A stretch of 33,269 bases of DNA, taken from positions 1 through 33,269 of the IMG/VR virus record IMGVR_UViG_3300022752_000234; one strand, 5' to 3'. Positions 16,083 through 23,878 of the stretch are shown one piece after another; within the stretch, counting starts at the first letter, position 1, and each line of letters opens with the position of its first letter. This stretch comes from a virus. A program made the position numbers and the translations under genes. The notes under the pieces are model-generated. The model made no database searches, was not told where the DNA came from, and saw nothing but the letters and a program-made list of their open reading frames with translations.

Positions 16083-17951
16083 TTATTTCACTTCTTCAAA
16101 CTCAACATTTTGAATATTTTCTTCACTATTGTCTTCGTTTGGTTTTGTTTGATTTGCTTGTTCATACAATTTTTGACTAATCTCTTGAAATTTTCTATTA
16201 ACTTCTTCGGTTAAAGATTTAACTTCTGAAATGTCTTTTTTATTACAAGCCTCTCGCAATTTATCAACTTTCGAGTTTATTTCTGATTTTTCTTCATTTG
16301 AGATTTTATCACCAAGGTCCTCAAGAGATTTTCCAACTTGGAACATTAATGAATCTGCCGAATTTAGTGTGTTAACATCTTCTTTAAGTTTTTTGTCAGT
16401 TTCGGCATTCATCTCAGCATCTTTTTTCATTCTTTCAATTTCTTCTTTTGAAAGTCCTGAGGATGACTCAATTCGAATTGATTGAACTTTATTTGTTGTT
16501 TTATCAACCGCCGATACATTTATGATTCCATTCGCATCAATATCAAACGTCACGTCAATTTGTGGAGTACCCCGTCTTGCTGGAGGTATTCCGTCCAAAT
16601 TAAATCTACCAATAGATCGGTTGTCTTTTGCCATTGATCTTTCTCCCTGTAAAACATGAATTTCCACTGTTGGCTGATTGTCTACCGCTGTTGAGAATGT
16701 TTCTGATTTTTTTGTTGGAATTGTAGTATTTGCATCAATTAATTTTGTAAAAACTCCACCCATAGTCTCAATACCCAAAGAAAGTGGTGTTACATCTAAT
16801 AATAGAACATCAGTAACGTCACCAGCTAAAACTCCTCCTTGGATTGCAGCCCCTAGTGCAACTACCTCATCTGGATTTACACCCTTAGACGGTTCTTTAC
16901 CAAAAAACTTCTTAACCGCCTCTTGAATTGCAGGAATACGAGTTGACCCACCAACCAAAATAATTTCATCAATATCACTTGGTTTTAGTTTTGCATTTTC
17001 GAGCGCCGATTCACAAGGTTTAATTGTTCTATCAACTAAAGATTGTGTTAATTGATCAAATTTAGATTTAGTAATTGTTAAAACAAGATGTTTAGGACCT
17101 GTAGAATCTGCAGTAATATAAGGTAAATTAATTTCTGTTTGGGGTGATGAAGACAATTCAATTTTAGCTTTTTCCGCCGCCTCACGAAGTCTTTGAAGTG
17201 CTATCGGATCTTTTGAAATGTCTATACCGTTATCTTTTTTGAATTCGGAAACTAGATGGTCAATTAAAGTTTGGTCGAAATCATCTCCTCCCAAATGTGT
17301 GTCCCCGTCGGTAGATAGTACCTCAAATACGCCATCGCCAAGTTCTAACACAGAAACGTCGTGAGTTCCACCACCACAGTCAAAAACCACAATTTTCATG
17401 TCTTTTGCCATCTTATCAAGTCCGTAGGCCAAAGCCGCAGCGGTTGGTTCATTGATAATTCGTTTTACACTCAATCCAGCGATTTCACCAGCTTCTTTAG
17501 TTGCCTGTCGTTGTGCATCATTAAAATATGCGGGAACCGTAATTACGGCTTCAGTAACAGTCTGACCCAAATAGTCCTCAGCAGTTTGTTTCATTTTTTG
17601 TAAAATAGCGGCTGATATTTCCTGAGGTGAATATTTTTTTTCATCAATTTGTACTTTAGGTGTGTTATTTTCCTTAATAATTTTATATGGAACTTTTGTG
17701 GATTCATTTTTAACCTCATCAAAAGAAGATCCCATAAATCTTTTGATTGAATAAATTGTTTTTTCAGGGTTTGTAACCGCCTGTCTTTTGGCTGGGTCCC
17801 CAATTTTTCTTTCACCATCTTTTATGAACCCAACAATTGATGGTGTTGTTCGTTTTCCTTCGCTGTTAGCAATAACAACGGGTTCTTTACCCTCCATTAC
17901 TGCAACACATGAGTTAGTTGTACCTAAGTCAATTCCGATAATTTTTCCCAT
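16083..17951 (-). CDS. dnaK: Chaperone DnaK (Hsp70)
   Basis: 622 residues, full length. ATPase domain: [16 protein letters not shown] (5-20), the Hsp70 motif [15 protein letters not shown] (about 165-180), [20 protein letters not shown] (a T-to-C change in the usual DLGGGT) and [10 protein letters not shown] (about 330). Substrate domain: [20 protein letters not shown] and SAVDKTTNK, then the helical lid and an EEVK C-terminus as in host DnaK. It refolds or holds unfolded proteins with DnaJ and GrpE, neither of which is in this window, so it probably uses host co-chaperones. Transcribed divergently from the Clp unfoldase across a 161-base gap with paired TGACA palindromes. Phage dnaK is uncommon and was probably acquired from a host. 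Codon use is less AT-extreme than in neighbours. Confidence 0.98.
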
Positions 17952-18023: not shown

Positions 18024-18067
18024 TGTCAAAATGACATGTTTGAATAAAATTTTATGACATTTTGTCA
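18024..18067. promoter_or_regulatory. Paired TGACA palindromes in dnaK/clp divergent promoter
   Basis: Two 13-base perfect palindromes, TGTCAAAATGACA (18024-18036) and TGACATTTTGTCA (18055-18067), separated by 18 AT-rich bases. Each lies 4-6 bases from a likely -7 region of one of the two divergent promoters (18010-18017 for dnaK; about 18072-18080 for clp). The arrangement suggests an operator for a common regulator. It is not the CIRCE element of HrcA. Confidence 0.5.
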
Positions 18068-18112
18068 AATATATACTTTTTTTTTAAATTTTATAAAATT
18101 ATAAGAAAAAAA

Positions 18113-20149
18113 ATGATAGAATCACTAGATGAAAATGAAAAAAATAAAAAAAAATTAAATAGCAATACGCCAGTGTTAGATAATTTTAGTAAGGACCTTA
18201 ATAAACTTGCAGAACAAGGTAAATTAGACCCTGTAATTGGAAGAAAAGAAGAAATTTATAGAATAGCACAAATTTTATCGAGAAGAAAAAAAAATAACCC
18301 AATTATAATTGGTGAACCAGGAGCCGGTAAAACAGCAATTGTTGAGGGTTTATCTATCATGATTGAGAATGGAGACTGTCCAAAAAATTTACTTGATAAA
18401 AGAATTGTTTCATTAGATATAAATTCATTAGTTGCTGGAACTAAATATAGAGGTCAATTTGAAGAAAGAATGAAAGTAATTATTGAAGAAATAACTTCTA
18501 ATCCAAATCTTATAATTTTTATAGATGAAATTCATAATATGGTTGGAGCAGGTAACAGTTCAGGTTCTTTGGACGCATCAAATATATTTAAACCCGCTTT
18601 ATCAAGAGGGGAAATACAATGTATTGGGGCAACGACTTTAGATGAATATAGAAAAAGTATTGAAAAAGACGGAGCTTTAGAAAGAAGATTTCAAAAAATA
18701 ATTGTCGATCCATCAACAAAAGAAGAAACATTTGAAATATTAAAACAGAGTAAAGAAAAATATGAAAATCACCACAAAGTTTATTATGATGATAAAACAC
18801 TAAAACTTTTTGTTGAATTAGCCGATAGATACATAACAGACAGGGAATTTCCTGACAAAGCTTTTGATATTTTAGATGAGGTTGGGTCAAGAATGCAAAT
18901 TGATATAAAATTACCAAAAGAAATAGAAATTTTAAAATTAGAAGCACAGGAAATAAAAAAAATTAAATTTGATGTTATTAAAAAACAAAATTATGAACAA
19001 GCCGCAGAGCTTAGAGATAGAGAAAGAAATGTTTTAATAAAATTGAACGATTTGAAAAAAAAATTCGATGAGGAATTAAAAAATAGTAAAAAAAATATTC
19101 CTGAGGATTTAGTTTATGAAGTAGTTTCCAATATGACAAAAATTCCAATTTCAAATATAAATGTTGATGAAAAAAATAATTTAATTAATTTAAGTTTCAA
19201 TTTAAATTCAAAAGTGATCGGTCAAGAAAATGCGGTTAACAAAATTACAAAAGCAATCAGAAGAAATAGGATGGGAATAAAAGATCCAAATAAACCCATA
19301 GGCTCGTTTATATTTTTAGGATCAACGGGTGTCGGTAAAACTTATTTAGCAAAACAATTAGCAAAAGAAATTTTTGGAAGTGTTGACAATATGATCAGAG
19401 TTGACATGAGTGAATATCAAGAGAAACATACAATATCACGATTAATTGGATCTCCTCCAGGATATGTTGGTCATGAAGAAGGAGGTCAATTAACTGAACG
19501 AGTAAAAAATAAACCATATTCAGTCATTTTGTTCGACGAAATTGAAAAAGCACACAAAGACATTTTTTCAACATTACTTCAATTATTGGACGATGGTCAT
19601 GTTACAGATGCTACAGGTCGAAAAATTAATTTTAAAAATTGTTTAATTATTATGACTTCAAATATTGGAGTAAAAAAATTACAAGATTTTGGAACAGGTA
19701 TGGGATTTAAAACAAATAAAAGTGATGTTGTTTTAGAAGAAGAAAAACAAGATGTTTTGAAAAAGGAATTGAAAAAGTTTTTTGCACCTGAATTTTTAAA
19801 TAGAATTGATGATATTGTTATTTTTAATAGTTTAGAAAAAAGTCATATTAATCAAATTACAAAACTTGAAATTGATAAATTGTTGAGTAGGGTTTTAGAA
19901 AAAAATTATATTTTTTCTTATACACAAGATTTAATTGAATATATTTCTAAAGTAGGTTTTGATGAAACATTTGGAGCAAGACCTATAAAAAGAGCAATTC
20001 AAGAAAAAATTGAGGATTTGATTTCAGAAAAAATATTAATGTCAGAAATTGAAGAAAATACGGAGTATGTTTTTAAAGTAGAAAATGATGAAATCATTAT
20101 AGTAGAAAAAGAAGAAAAACCAAAAAAAGGAAGAAAAAAGAAAGAATAA
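18113..20149 (+). CDS. ClpC/ClpA-type AAA+ unfoldase without N-domain
   Basis: 678 residues from ATG at 18113 (MIESLDENEK); an in-frame ATG at 18062 would add a 17-residue F/I/Y-rich leader with no support. D1: Walker A GEPGAGKT (67-74), pore loop TKYRGQFEER, Walker B IIFIDEIHNM. Middle: KKQNYEQAAELRDRERN, a UVR-like motif typical of ClpC. D2: Walker A GSTGVGKT, pore loop PPGYVGHEEGG, Walker B ILFDEIEKAH, sensor MTSNIG. In the loop before PEFLNRID, TGMGFKTN has an MGF tripeptide like the IGF/VGF/LGF loop that docks ClpP. The ~145-residue N-domain that binds adaptors is missing, explaining the short length (ClpC is about 810). It could therefore feed host ClpP without host adaptors (inference). 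No clpP gene is present in the window. The tail is lysine-rich (KKGRKKKE). Confidence 0.93.
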   Translation: MIESLDENEKNKKKLNSNTPVLDNFSKDLNKLAEQGKLDPVIGRKEEIYRIAQILSRRKKNNPIIIGEPGAGKTAIVEGLSIMIENGDCPKNLLDKRIVSLDINSLVAGTKYRGQFEERMKVIIEEITSNPNLIIFIDEIHNMVGAGNSSGSLDASNIFKPALSRGEIQCIGATTLDEYRKSIEKDGALERRFQKIIVDPSTKEETFEILKQSKEKYENHHKVYYDDKTLKLFVELADRYITDREFPDKAFDILDEVGSRMQIDIKLPKEIEILKLEAQEIKKIKFDVIKKQNYEQAAELRDRERNVLIKLNDLKKKFDEELKNSKKNIPEDLVYEVVSNMTKIPISNINVDEKNNLINLSFNLNSKVIGQENAVNKITKAIRRNRMGIKDPNKPIGSFIFLGSTGVGKTYLAKQLAKEIFGSVDNMIRVDMSEYQEKHTISRLIGSPPGYVGHEEGGQLTERVKNKPYSVILFDEIEKAHKDIFSTLLQLLDDGHVTDATGRKINFKNCLIIMTSNIGVKKLQDFGTGMGFKTNKSDVVLEEEKQDVLKKELKKFFAPEFLNRIDDIVIFNSLEKSHINQITKLEIDKLLSRVLEKNYIFSYTQDLIEYISKVGFDETFGARPIKRAIQEKIEDLISEKILMSEIEENTEYVFKVENDEIIIVEKEEKPKKGRKKKE

Positions 20150-20196: not shown

Positions 20197-21228
20197 ATGA
20201 ATATAGAAAAATTTAAAGAACTTTTATCTGTCCCAACCAAGACTTATAAAGAAAGTAAAATGGTTGAATACATATTGTCAGTTCTTGAGGGTATGGAAGG
20301 TGTGATTTATAATTACGATGATCATAATAATATTTACGCAACAAAAGGATCATTAGAAGATGACGAGTTTTATCCCATGTTTATTTCTCATACAGACACG
20401 GTTCATGAACTTGTTGAAAAAATAGTTGTTAAAGAAGAACAACTTGTTCGTCCATTTACATTTGGAAAAGATTTTGGAAAAGATCAAGTTTTATGTTTAA
20501 AAGCATATGATAAAGATGATAAACCAACAGGAATTGGTGGTGATGACAAATGTGGAATTTATATTTGTTTGGAACTTCTATCTCAATTAGACAAAGTTAA
20601 AGTGGCATTTTTTGTTTCAGAAGAAACGGGTTGTCACGGATCAAAATTTGTTGATAAAGAGTTTTTAAAAGACGTTGGTTACTGCGTTCAGTATGACGCA
20701 CCTGGAGATCATTTAATTTCTCAATCTTGTTTTGGAACCACTTTATTTGATAAAGAAGGAGAGTTTTTTAACACCGCAATTAAATCAATCACAAAAGGGT
20801 TTAATAACGAGATGTTAGTTCAGTCTCATCCATATACCGATATTATGATGATTAAACAACAATCTGATCTATCTTGTATTAATATGTCATGTGGTTATTA
20901 TAACATGCACACAGCAAACGAATTTGTGTGTATCGATGACGTTCAAAGAGCAATTGAAGCAGGAAAAAACATGGTAAAAGATCTTGGTTTAAAAAAATAT
21001 GAATTTAAATATAATGAACCAAAACCAACAAAATCTTTACTACCGTTTGATGATTTCGATAAAAATCCATTTTATGACGATGTTCATCAATTAACATCTA
21101 TTGACGTAATTGAAGAAAAAGATGGATTTATAATTGCAGATATTTATGACGAAAACCAATTTTTTATTGATGATGAAGATGGTTACAAATTATATGAGAT
21201 TTTAAAAGAACGTTATCGTCTTAATTGA
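20197..21228 (+). CDS. M20-type metallopeptidase, peptidase T-like
   Basis: 343 residues. The zinc ligands of co-catalytic aminopeptidases are in order: H65 and D67 in SHTDTVH, D116/D117 in GIGGDDKCGI (bridging aspartate), E142-E143 in FVSEETGCHGS (catalytic glutamate plus ligand), D167 in VQYDAPGD and H238 in YNMHTANE. FTEETGCHGS-like spacing and the ISHTDTV start resemble tripeptidase (PepT) and related M20/M28 enzymes that remove residues from short peptides. It is shorter than PepT (about 408), so the lid domain may be reduced. It lies 47 bases behind the Clp gene on the same strand with its own -7 element. A role in finishing Clp-derived peptides is inference. The 3' end overlaps the convergent gene by 16 bases. 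Confidence 0.85.
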   Translation: MNIEKFKELLSVPTKTYKESKMVEYILSVLEGMEGVIYNYDDHNNIYATKGSLEDDEFYPMFISHTDTVHELVEKIVVKEEQLVRPFTFGKDFGKDQVLCLKAYDKDDKPTGIGGDDKCGIYICLELLSQLDKVKVAFFVSEETGCHGSKFVDKEFLKDVGYCVQYDAPGDHLISQSCFGTTLFDKEGEFFNTAIKSITKGFNNEMLVQSHPYTDIMMIKQQSDLSCINMSCGYYNMHTANEFVCIDDVQRAIEAGKNMVKDLGLKKYEFKYNEPKPTKSLLPFDDFDKNPFYDDVHQLTSIDVIEEKDGFIIADIYDENQFFIDDEDGYKLYEILKERYRLN

Positions 21229-22346
21229 CCTGGATCAATTCTAAACTCAGTTGGGTTAAATAAACCTGGCTGAGTTACCATTTGAATTACCTCATTAGCA
21301 GACGCCAAACCATATTTACGATCACCAAAATAACTACCTGAACCGATTAAATATTTTACCTTTAATGTTTCAGGATCAACTGACTCCACTTTTATAAATA
21401 AATTTTTTTGACCTGGAATTTCTTTTCTATAAAATAAATTCAAAGATGAAAGCTTATCTATAATTTTTGTAAATTCAGGAGATAATTCTTCTTGAGCTCT
21501 TTCTATATATTCATCAATCAAATCAACTAATTTTTCACAAGACTCAGATTGAAACATTTCATGGTCCATTACATGATATTCCATTTCGTAATGTTCAGGA
21601 AGACCGTGTCTAAATTTCTTCTCAATTTTTTGAATTAATATGTCAAGAACTTTTCCATCAAATTCACCATCTTCAACAAATAACTGAACCAGATTACCCC
21701 AACTTATAAAGTATAATCCAAAACACCACTTACCCCATTTTTCAACTCCGAATTCTTCAAGTGTTTCACAATATTCTTTTTCGATTGCTTCTTTAACTCC
21801 TGCTTCAGTTGCATTCGCTTTAGCAGAACATATAATCTCATCTATTTCATCTGCAATATGTTGAAAGTATTTGTCTAATACACTTGTAATCGCACCTTCG
21901 CCATCAATTCTACCGTTTTCATAAATATTATCAACAAGGGTAGGTGAGATTATTTTAAGTAATTCTTTTAATCTGATTTTTGCTTCACTACAAAGATATC
22001 CTAAAGTATATCCTTCACTCCAATCGTCGTATGCTCGTTCTTTACAATCATTATAAAAATCATAAGAACCATAATACATACGATCATAGTTAACAGCATC
22101 CCACTCACCGTCAGTTCCTTCTTCAAATGTAGAATAATGAAAAAACTTTAAAAACTGTTCTAAATCATCAAAATCAAATAATAGACCATGAGGTTTAACT
22201 TGAACATGATCTAGTTTCAAGTCTTTGTAATTATCACTTTTAAATTCAACATCGTTCGGATCTAACTTTTGTTTATTCAAAAGAAGGATTTTTTGAAAGT
22301 CTGACATGTTTGAGACATCATTTTCTACTAAAAGTCTTTTTTTCAT
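21213..22346 (-). CDS. Hypothetical acidic protein of proteostasis block
   Basis: 377 residues, acidic and rich in aromatic residues (AYDDWSEGYTLGYLCSEAKI, YGSYDFYNDC, WGKWCFGLYFISWGNLV). No motif known to me. The first 20 residues (MKKRLLVENDVSNMSDFQKI) include LLVE/N, which could also be a protease leader. It is convergent with the peptidase gene (16-base tail overlap) and its start is close to the divergent tmRNA promoter: ATATTTATAAATAT (22347-22360) is its probable promoter box, and 22362 begins the tmRNA -33 element. Codon use and lack of internal stops support it; function not assigned. Confidence 0.75.
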   Translation of the reverse strand: MKKRLLVENDVSNMSDFQKILLLNKQKLDPNDVEFKSDNYKDLKLDHVQVKPHGLLFDFDDLEQFLKFFHYSTFEEGTDGEWDAVNYDRMYYGSYDFYNDCKERAYDDWSEGYTLGYLCSEAKIRLKELLKIISPTLVDNIYENGRIDGEGAITSVLDKYFQHIADEIDEIICSAKANATEAGVKEAIEKEYCETLEEFGVEKWGKWCFGLYFISWGNLVQLFVEDGEFDGKVLDILIQKIEKKFRHGLPEHYEMEYHVMDHEMFQSESCEKLVDLIDEYIERAQEELSPEFTKIIDKLSSLNLFYRKEIPGQKNLFIKVESVDPETLKVKYLIGSGSYFGDRKYGLASANEVIQMVTQPGLFNPTEFRIDPGQLRR

Positions 22347-22413: not shown

Positions 22414-22818
22414 GGGCCCGACTTGGATTTGACAGGCGTTGGTTGAATAAAAGAAGCATGCCGAGACTGAGATAATCTCGTTAAAAACTGACTCACAAAA
22501 ACAACTGGCAATGTGCTAAACAAAATGGAAACTCTTGGTTTACTAAGAGGTTCTGAAGTTACTGTAGCTTAAGAAGTTTACGGAAACGGGAGCCGGTTCA
22601 CATACGCTTAGCAACAGAAGTGATGAAGGTGAAATACAACTGAACCATAAATCGAGTTGTCTATTGGTTTTTAATTTACGATAGTGAACAACAAATTAAA
22701 ATTGTTTTTGATCAAGACAAAATCAAATATTTTGGGGTATTAGAAAATACCAACCTAAGCATGTAGTTGTCTTTTAAACAAGACGAGCTGGACGAGATTT
22801 CGAATATCTCCGGGTCCA
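22414..22818 (+). ncRNA. ssrA: tmRNA (transfer-messenger RNA)
   Basis: 405 bases. Ends: 5' GGGCCCG pairs with 3' CGGGTCC (one G-U), then discriminator A at 22818; CCA is not encoded. The T-arm GAGAT-TTCGAAT-ATCTC and the D-like segment TTGGATTTGACAGG are intact. After a pseudoknot-capable region (GAGACTGAGATAATCTC with a later CTCA), a GGC at 22507 is at position 94 of the RNA, close to the E. coli resume codon. From there an open frame of 21 codons begins GNVLNKMETL, ends GSEVTVA and stops at TAA 22570-22572. This tag is longer than the usual Bacteroidota 8-9 residues (G...YALAA) and ends TVA rather than LAA. It rescues stalled ribosomes and marks products for proteolysis. Strong own promoter and terminator. 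Tag reading is moderate, gene is near certain. Confidence 0.95.
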
Positions 22819-22826
22819 CAGTAGAC

Positions 22827-22906: not shown

Positions 22907-23878
22907 GAATTTTTTTACCGGTTTTAGCTCCATCTATATTAGAAAAAAACGCTGAGATTACACGTCGTGTTTGAGAACCTTTAGAGTCATTATTGTTTCT
23001 ACTCTTATCCACTTTCTTTTGAAAAGTATTTCTCAGTGCTGGTTATTTAGGTGAACCACTCCTTGAGATCTTATCTACTCTCTTACTACTCGATACTCCT
23101 CGAGGATGCCTCCCCAATTGATCCTTGCGGGACTAGAGATCTTTTGTAAAACTACACTCGGTCTTGGGAACCTTATGTGCCACGGACAGCCCGTGACTAA
23201 GTAAGCACCTTTCAACAAGATCTGACGGACACTTTTCCTTATTTATAATTAATTGTTTAATAATAATTAAGTTTTGTGTCGTGGATTGTCGAAGTAGTGG
23301 TCCGCCACCAGAGCCAACCCATCTTTTGAACGAGTCGATACTCAACTACTTCGTGAAATGTCCCCATTTCCATACTTCAAGAACTCTTCGAATTATTACC
23401 TTGGTGGGTAATTAATAAGGACGATGTCAGCACCACCTGTTACTCATCTTGTCTTTCGACGTTAAGATTCCTTTGATATTGGAACTCGCAATTAAAGTGT
23501 TGGAGCACTTAGTTTTGCAAAAATCCCTACGAGTTATTCCTATTGGTGTCCCCACCTCAATTAGACGACCCACATCGCCCAATCATCTAACCACTTTCCC
23601 TACAGCGTCGCCCTCGGTACTAAAGGTTAAACGGTATCCCGCTTGTGTACTCGACCTCAATTATCCAAAGACAATCAAGACGCAAACCATATAACACAGA
23701 TGGTTCACTTTATCCCACTTTCGTGGTTTATTTTAATGGACCATACACGGCCCAATATCTTTATCAATCAAAGAAGAGAATTTCATCTCAATTACTTGCC
23801 AAATAATCTGACAAAACTTATCATGAACGGATAGTCATTTTTTCAAAGAACGTTATCGGACGTTTCCGATTTGTTTTA

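Follow-up and report, generated by a model that had tools for sequence, protein, structure and literature searches.

The window, which is the entire 33,269-base IMG/VR record analysed here, carries a phage-encoded tmRNA gene whose tag of 21 codons belongs to a conserved peptide family, differs from the tags of the probable host phylum and lies downstream of a gene for a ClpC-type unfoldase. We consider it probable (roughly 0.6) that these genes form a phage trans-translation and proteolysis module with a tag of its own, which would be read by the phage Clp together with a phage or host ClpP.

A tmRNA gene in a T4-like phage

The source virus is a T4-like phage, as judged from a gp23 capsid protein and a prohead protease (both by Pfam) and a T4-like large terminase (TerL). 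The one-piece tmRNA gene (ssrA) lies on the plus strand at 22414–22821 and matched the Rfam model RF00023 with 94.2 bits (E 1e-35), exceeding the curated Rfam cut-off of 47. Relatives were gathered via a neighbour protein, TerL and the Clp ATPase, and their tmRNAs were then located. The tRNA-like domain has a 7-bp acceptor stem, formed in the window by GGGCCCG (22414–22420) and CGGGTCC (22811–22817) with 7/7 pairs, and the G3-U70 pair was found in 66/66 tmRNAs. The 3' end of the window tmRNA is ACAG and no CCA is encoded; an encoded CCA was absent in approximately one third of the aligned tmRNAs of the window and its relatives.

Pseudoknot 1 (22462–22495) consists of the stems S1 (22462–22466/22476–22480) and S2 (22468–22471/22492–22495); in an alignment of 23 sequences it was 98–100% paired and showed compensatory changes. 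It ends 11 nt before the resume codon GGC at 22507. The invariant A at position −4 of this codon (22503) is the counterpart of A86 of E. coli tmRNA, which sets the frame (PMC2481249), and the tag stop codon is situated inside helix H5 (22558–22587, strands 22558–22566/22579–22587), in which 92% of the alignment cells were paired. This canonical anatomy, i.e. G3-U70, pseudoknot 1, the −4 A and the stop in H5, fixes the tag frame.

ARAGORN made no call for the window tmRNA. Among the 66 tmRNAs it called 11, with the full tag in only 7, and the phage tmRNAs scored lower against RF00023 than Bacteroidota tmRNAs did.

The tag reading frame

The tag frame (22507–22572, plus strand) runs from GGC at 22507, RNA position 94, over 21 codons to TAA at 22570–22572 and encodes GNVLNKMETLGLLRGSEVTVA. 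As the C-terminal extension of a protein the 22-residue tail reads AGNVLNKMETLGLLRGSEVTVA. The preliminary description of this DNA had given a frame of 21 codons from GGC 22507 ending EVTVA-stop, and its coordinates and peptide proved exact. Alignment, which it had named as the means to fix the resume codon, placed GGN first in all of at least 83 distinct peptides and A at −4 in 65/65. Both rival resume codons, GGT 22549 (tag GSEVTVA) and GCA 22508, were thereby excluded; GSEVTVA alone is not the tag, because residue 15, its G, is E, T, A or S in relatives and residues 2–14 are conserved.

A strict filter was passed by 65 of the 66 tmRNAs, the window included, with tags of 21 or 22 codons. The remaining one (L186) has the tag GNVINKLSVAGLIRTEEVAVA and was lost to the filter alone. 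The other two frames contained stops in 35/36 distinct sequences. To quantify selection on the peptide, single-base codon changes between 101 distinct 21-codon tag DNAs were counted along a minimum spanning tree: 180/278 were synonymous, compared with 77 expected by random placement. The p value of about 1e-37 is indicative, as the tree is an approximation and its edges were taken as independent. Judged from these codon changes, the tag peptide is under strong purifying selection. Additionally, IMG/VR was scanned blindly with two DNA patterns that comprised the first 12 tag codons and the −4 A. At least 199 frames were obtained; among the matches listed, 196 have a stop directly following codon 21 or 22, and 3/199 end early, apparently at contig ends. 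The failure of ARAGORN to call the window tmRNA could be taken to mean that this is a chance frame with the true tag elsewhere, or that the RNA is a pseudogene, but such a reading is exceedingly improbable and is refuted by the invariant −4 A, the synonymous excess, the frame shared by at least 83 distinct peptides and the RNA structure with its compensatory changes.

A conserved tag family

The at least 83 distinct tag peptides have 21–22 residues and contain two conserved blocks, GNVLxKMxxLGL and VxVA, so that residues 2–14 are conserved together with the tail. Among the 83 peptides listed, G1, G11 and L12 are invariant, K6 is present in 81 and the C-terminal Ala in 79, and none ends in LAA. 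In a further tmRNA tag, read by eye (L162:6150-6600), GAC (Asp) replaces GGN: DATFAKMATLGLTREAVVVGA.

We asked where else such a peptide occurs. A profile search of 17,186 ORFs recovered tmRNA frames only, and an origin of the tag as a copy of a phage protein C-terminus was therefore rejected. Inspection by eye for a T4 prohead-protease site in the tag gave a pattern that is not common to the tags. Among the isolate phages in INPHARED, tblastn with two tags found no relative, a search whose sensitivity for 21 residues is uncalibrated, and a DNA similarity search with the tmRNA gave chance-level matches only.

The phage Clp and the neighbouring genes

On the same strand, upstream of the tmRNA, lies the gene for a two-ring AAA+ unfoldase of the ClpC type that has no N domain (18062–20149, plus strand), assigned from Pfam, comparison with cellular ClpC and linkage. 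The phage Clps keep two AAA modules, both ATPase sites (Walker motifs), both pore loops and the ClpP-docking [IVM]GF loop, which is MGF in the window Clp and IGF or VGF in its commonest relatives. The two AAA rings, the pore loops and the [IVM]GF loop are thus common to the phage Clp and ClpC/ClpA-ClpP, from which the phage protein differs in that it has no N domain, is phage-encoded and adjoins a tmRNA. Only 6–52 residues precede the first AAA module in the phage Clps, compared with 162 or more in cellular ClpC, and the N-terminal adaptor domain of ClpC/ClpA is missing.

ClpP is encoded in 11/30 relatives, with the Ser-His-Asp triad read as present in two. SmpB was found in 1/30 records, a 309-kb relative, and not in the window. 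Neither ClpP nor SmpB was detected in the window or in the large relatives nearest to it (as long as 272 kb), records which may be incomplete; host ClpP and host SmpB would therefore be needed in these phages.

The Clp gene is followed by an M20/M42-type metallopeptidase (20197–21228, plus strand; PF05343, E 1.8e-7), a candidate peptide trimmer. Convergent with both is the gene for a conserved 377-aa protein (21213–22346, minus strand), and divergent from Clp is DnaK (Hsp70; 16083–17951, minus strand; PF00012, E 1e-261), which adjoins Clp only in a few relatives. To follow the linkage, we considered tag-ascertained loci, for which the tag was the sole search criterion, provided that 6 kb or more of upstream sequence was available. 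In 69/70 such loci listed, Clp preceded the tmRNA in the same orientation, at a median distance of 2.75 kb, and the peptidase was present, in either orientation, in 70/70. Starting from Clp, a tmRNA was found in 49/50 loci that have 6 kb or more of downstream sequence, the exception being L184; this count includes the added L134, L151 and L162. Furthermore, all 5/5 TerL-ascertained records with a tmRNA carry Clp. Since this linkage lies within related phages, the 69/70 loci do not count as independent events.

The 377-aa protein is often encoded between the peptidase and the tmRNA, and many loci yielded no clear homologue. In distant relatives, segments resembling it make up the C-terminal portion of longer proteins, of as many as 716 aa, encoded in the same place. 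Its AlphaFold model (pLDDT 87) had no match in the PDB at E <= 0.001. As the model resembles no solved structure, SspB and ClpS included, the protein was rejected as a known adaptor, and it is an adaptor candidate by position only.

The preliminary description had not included the conserved tag family, the adjoining peptidase or a GOLLD RNA. The latter lies convergent to the tmRNA, 127 nt from its 3' end (22949–23353, minus strand, 306 bits), and adjoins the tmRNA in 9/20 relatives tested as well.

Host phylum and host tags

The phage Clp has its closest similarity (55%) to the ClpC proteins of Flavobacteriaceae and further Bacteroidota. Its nearest counterparts in INPHARED (57–58%) belong to two uncultured phages of 635–642 kb, whose records contained no tmRNA above the Rfam cut-off. 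This size class is assigned to Bacteroidetes hosts in a study of huge phages (PMC7162821). From these two relationships we infer that the host phylum of the tag carriers, a large group of freshwater phages, is Bacteroidota. A TerL search of GTDB genomes for a host gave no confirmed relative.

We compared the phage tag with a sample of 99 tmRNAs from Bacteroidota, drawn by family and phylum, of which one was uncalled and a few ARAGORN calls look wrong-frame. Nearly all tags had 8–10 residues, for example GENNYALAA, ANDYSYAMAA and DNNYSYRLAA. The phage tag is no such short tag with an LAA or MAA end, and the earlier claim of a long tag ending in TVA, unlike those of the host phylum, held in this sample. 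The RNA is in one piece in both cases and the resume codon is usually Gly in Flavobacteriaceae, as in the phage; the Bacteroidota tags are short and end in AA, whereas the phage tags have 21–22 residues and mostly end in V-A. From the sequences compared, the phage tag appears to share the often-Gly start with host tags, but not the remainder. No similar tag was found among the Bacteroidota tmRNAs sampled, and a tag borrowed from the host was thus rejected.

Proposed function of the tag

If the genes form a phage module as proposed, the phage tmRNA would be charged with alanine, as G3-U70 suggests, and would use host SmpB, or in one large relative the SmpB encoded by the phage. Its targets would be ribosomes stalled on broken or nuclease-cut mRNAs; the ribosome would restart at GGC 22507 and append Ala and 21 residues. 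The C-terminal V-x-V-A could be the handle that enters the AAA+ pore. The first half of the tag, conserved and amphipathic, might serve as a specificity element or spacer. The tag would be long enough for the axial channel of the phage two-ring Clp (18062–20149). In work on ClpA it is argued that a tag of 11 residues does not extend as far as the channel of ClpA unless more unstructured residues are present (PMC12493166), so that a longer tag would be favoured for a two-ring Clp. The phage Clp, which lacks the N domain to which adaptors dock in cells, would feed its substrates to ClpP, the host's in the window phage and the phage's own in relatives, and further breakdown of the products to amino acids may fall to the M20/M42-type peptidase. 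Amino-acid recycling has been proposed for a phage tmRNA (PMC9004378), and a peptidase beside the tmRNA would suit it.

The preliminary description had suggested that the tag might route products to the phage Clp. The position of Clp upstream in 69/70 tag loci listed and the ClpP encoded by relatives lend real weight to this suggestion; recognition of the tag by Clp is inferred. More tentatively, we propose phage-run quality control and recycling as a whole, with a tag that is poorly read by the host, an adaptor-blind Clp, phage or host ClpP, and the peptidase. If true, the degradation of stalled proteins and the supply of amino acids during infection would be under phage control.

Alternatively, host proteases (ClpXP, host ClpC-ClpP or Lon) might mainly read the tag, the phage Clp being otherwise used in the remodelling of capsid or host proteins, and the tag length having drifted without a private reader. 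The C-terminal Ala in 79/83 peptides listed is consistent with this, as are the lack of phage ClpP in the window clade and the tmRNAs known in many phages (PMC9004378). We nevertheless consider it unlikely, as the first 12 residues and the length of 21–22 are conserved far beyond a bare C-degron and the linkage to an N-less Clp is near-absolute. Escape of the tag from host ClpX and host adaptors, which had also been suggested, is possible, but host ClpX might still recognise the terminal Ala that nearly all the tags retain. The phage G tag likewise ends in QVA, E. coli tags altered to end in LVA undergo degradation, and -VA ends are not clearly unreadable for ClpX.

A non-degradative tag, which would protect, localise or aggregate stalled products, e.g. 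keeping them from host ClpXP and leaving the release of the ribosome as all that counts, would account for a sequence unlike host tags and for an LAA end in 0/83 listed. It is improbable, given that the tmRNA adjoins an unfoldase and a peptidase, that ClpP is encoded elsewhere in some of the genomes, and that the C-terminal small or hydrophobic residues are degron-like.

Finally, substrates could be handed to the phage Clp or the host Clp by a phage-encoded adaptor that binds the first half of the tag and might be the 377-aa neighbour. The blocks GNVLxKMxxLGL and VxVA and the frequent position of the neighbour between peptidase and tmRNA would fit such an adaptor, but this variant is very improbable in view of a neighbour that is unlike any solved structure, SspB and ClpS included, and of which many loci yielded no clear homologue.

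Comparison with known systems

Phage tmRNAs have been found by ARAGORN in 402/18,146 genomes (PMC9004378). Those of Bacillus phage G, the mycobacteriophages and Melnitz are likewise phage-encoded, and the phage G tag, as read here AKLNITNNELQVA, ends in QVA and so shares a -VA end with the window tag. The papers that we found on these tmRNAs describe no conserved family of 21-residue tags with linkage to a phage Clp, and a literature search, with most subscription journals outside its scope, gave no report of a conserved tag family that is specific to phages and tied to a Clp of their own. ARAGORN misses most of the tmRNAs described here; this may explain the lack of reports, and it suggests that phage tmRNAs are undercounted in surveys that rely on ARAGORN. 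Known tmRNA tags have 8–35 residues (PMC8012679), and the length by itself is thus not new.

The precedent for a private tag-protease pair is Mesoplasma florum, in which a divergent tag has a cognate protease, as is proposed here, and the pair works apart from E. coli proteases (PMC9097571). The Mesoplasma florum protease is Lon and cellular, whereas the candidate described here is a ClpC-type unfoldase encoded on a phage. In the study of huge phages, tmRNA and SmpB were noted in some of them, and the consulted portion of that report does not analyse the tags (PMC7162821). Ideas so far on why phages carry tmRNA are host machinery upkeep, lysis timing or recycling (PMC7162821, PMC9004378). A conserved non-host tag linked to a phage unfoldase makes the role of phage tmRNA testable as a candidate tag-protease pair, and the tag could serve as a private degradation tag in the laboratory.

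Three further observations concern the tmRNAs themselves. The tRNA-like ends in close relatives are of several types (GGGCCCG, GGGCCTA, GGGGGTG) that flank near-identical tags, which suggests recombination of the tRNA-like domain. In one relative (L151:12790-13395) a group I intron (RF00028) apparently splits the T loop of the tmRNA, whose tag is GNTFEKLQAVGLLTTEAVTVA. A 484-kb uncultured phage (L451, LR756508.1:92434-92880) contains a tmRNA with a possible tag of approximately 34 residues that ends in SERKPAAV and is unrelated to the family described here.
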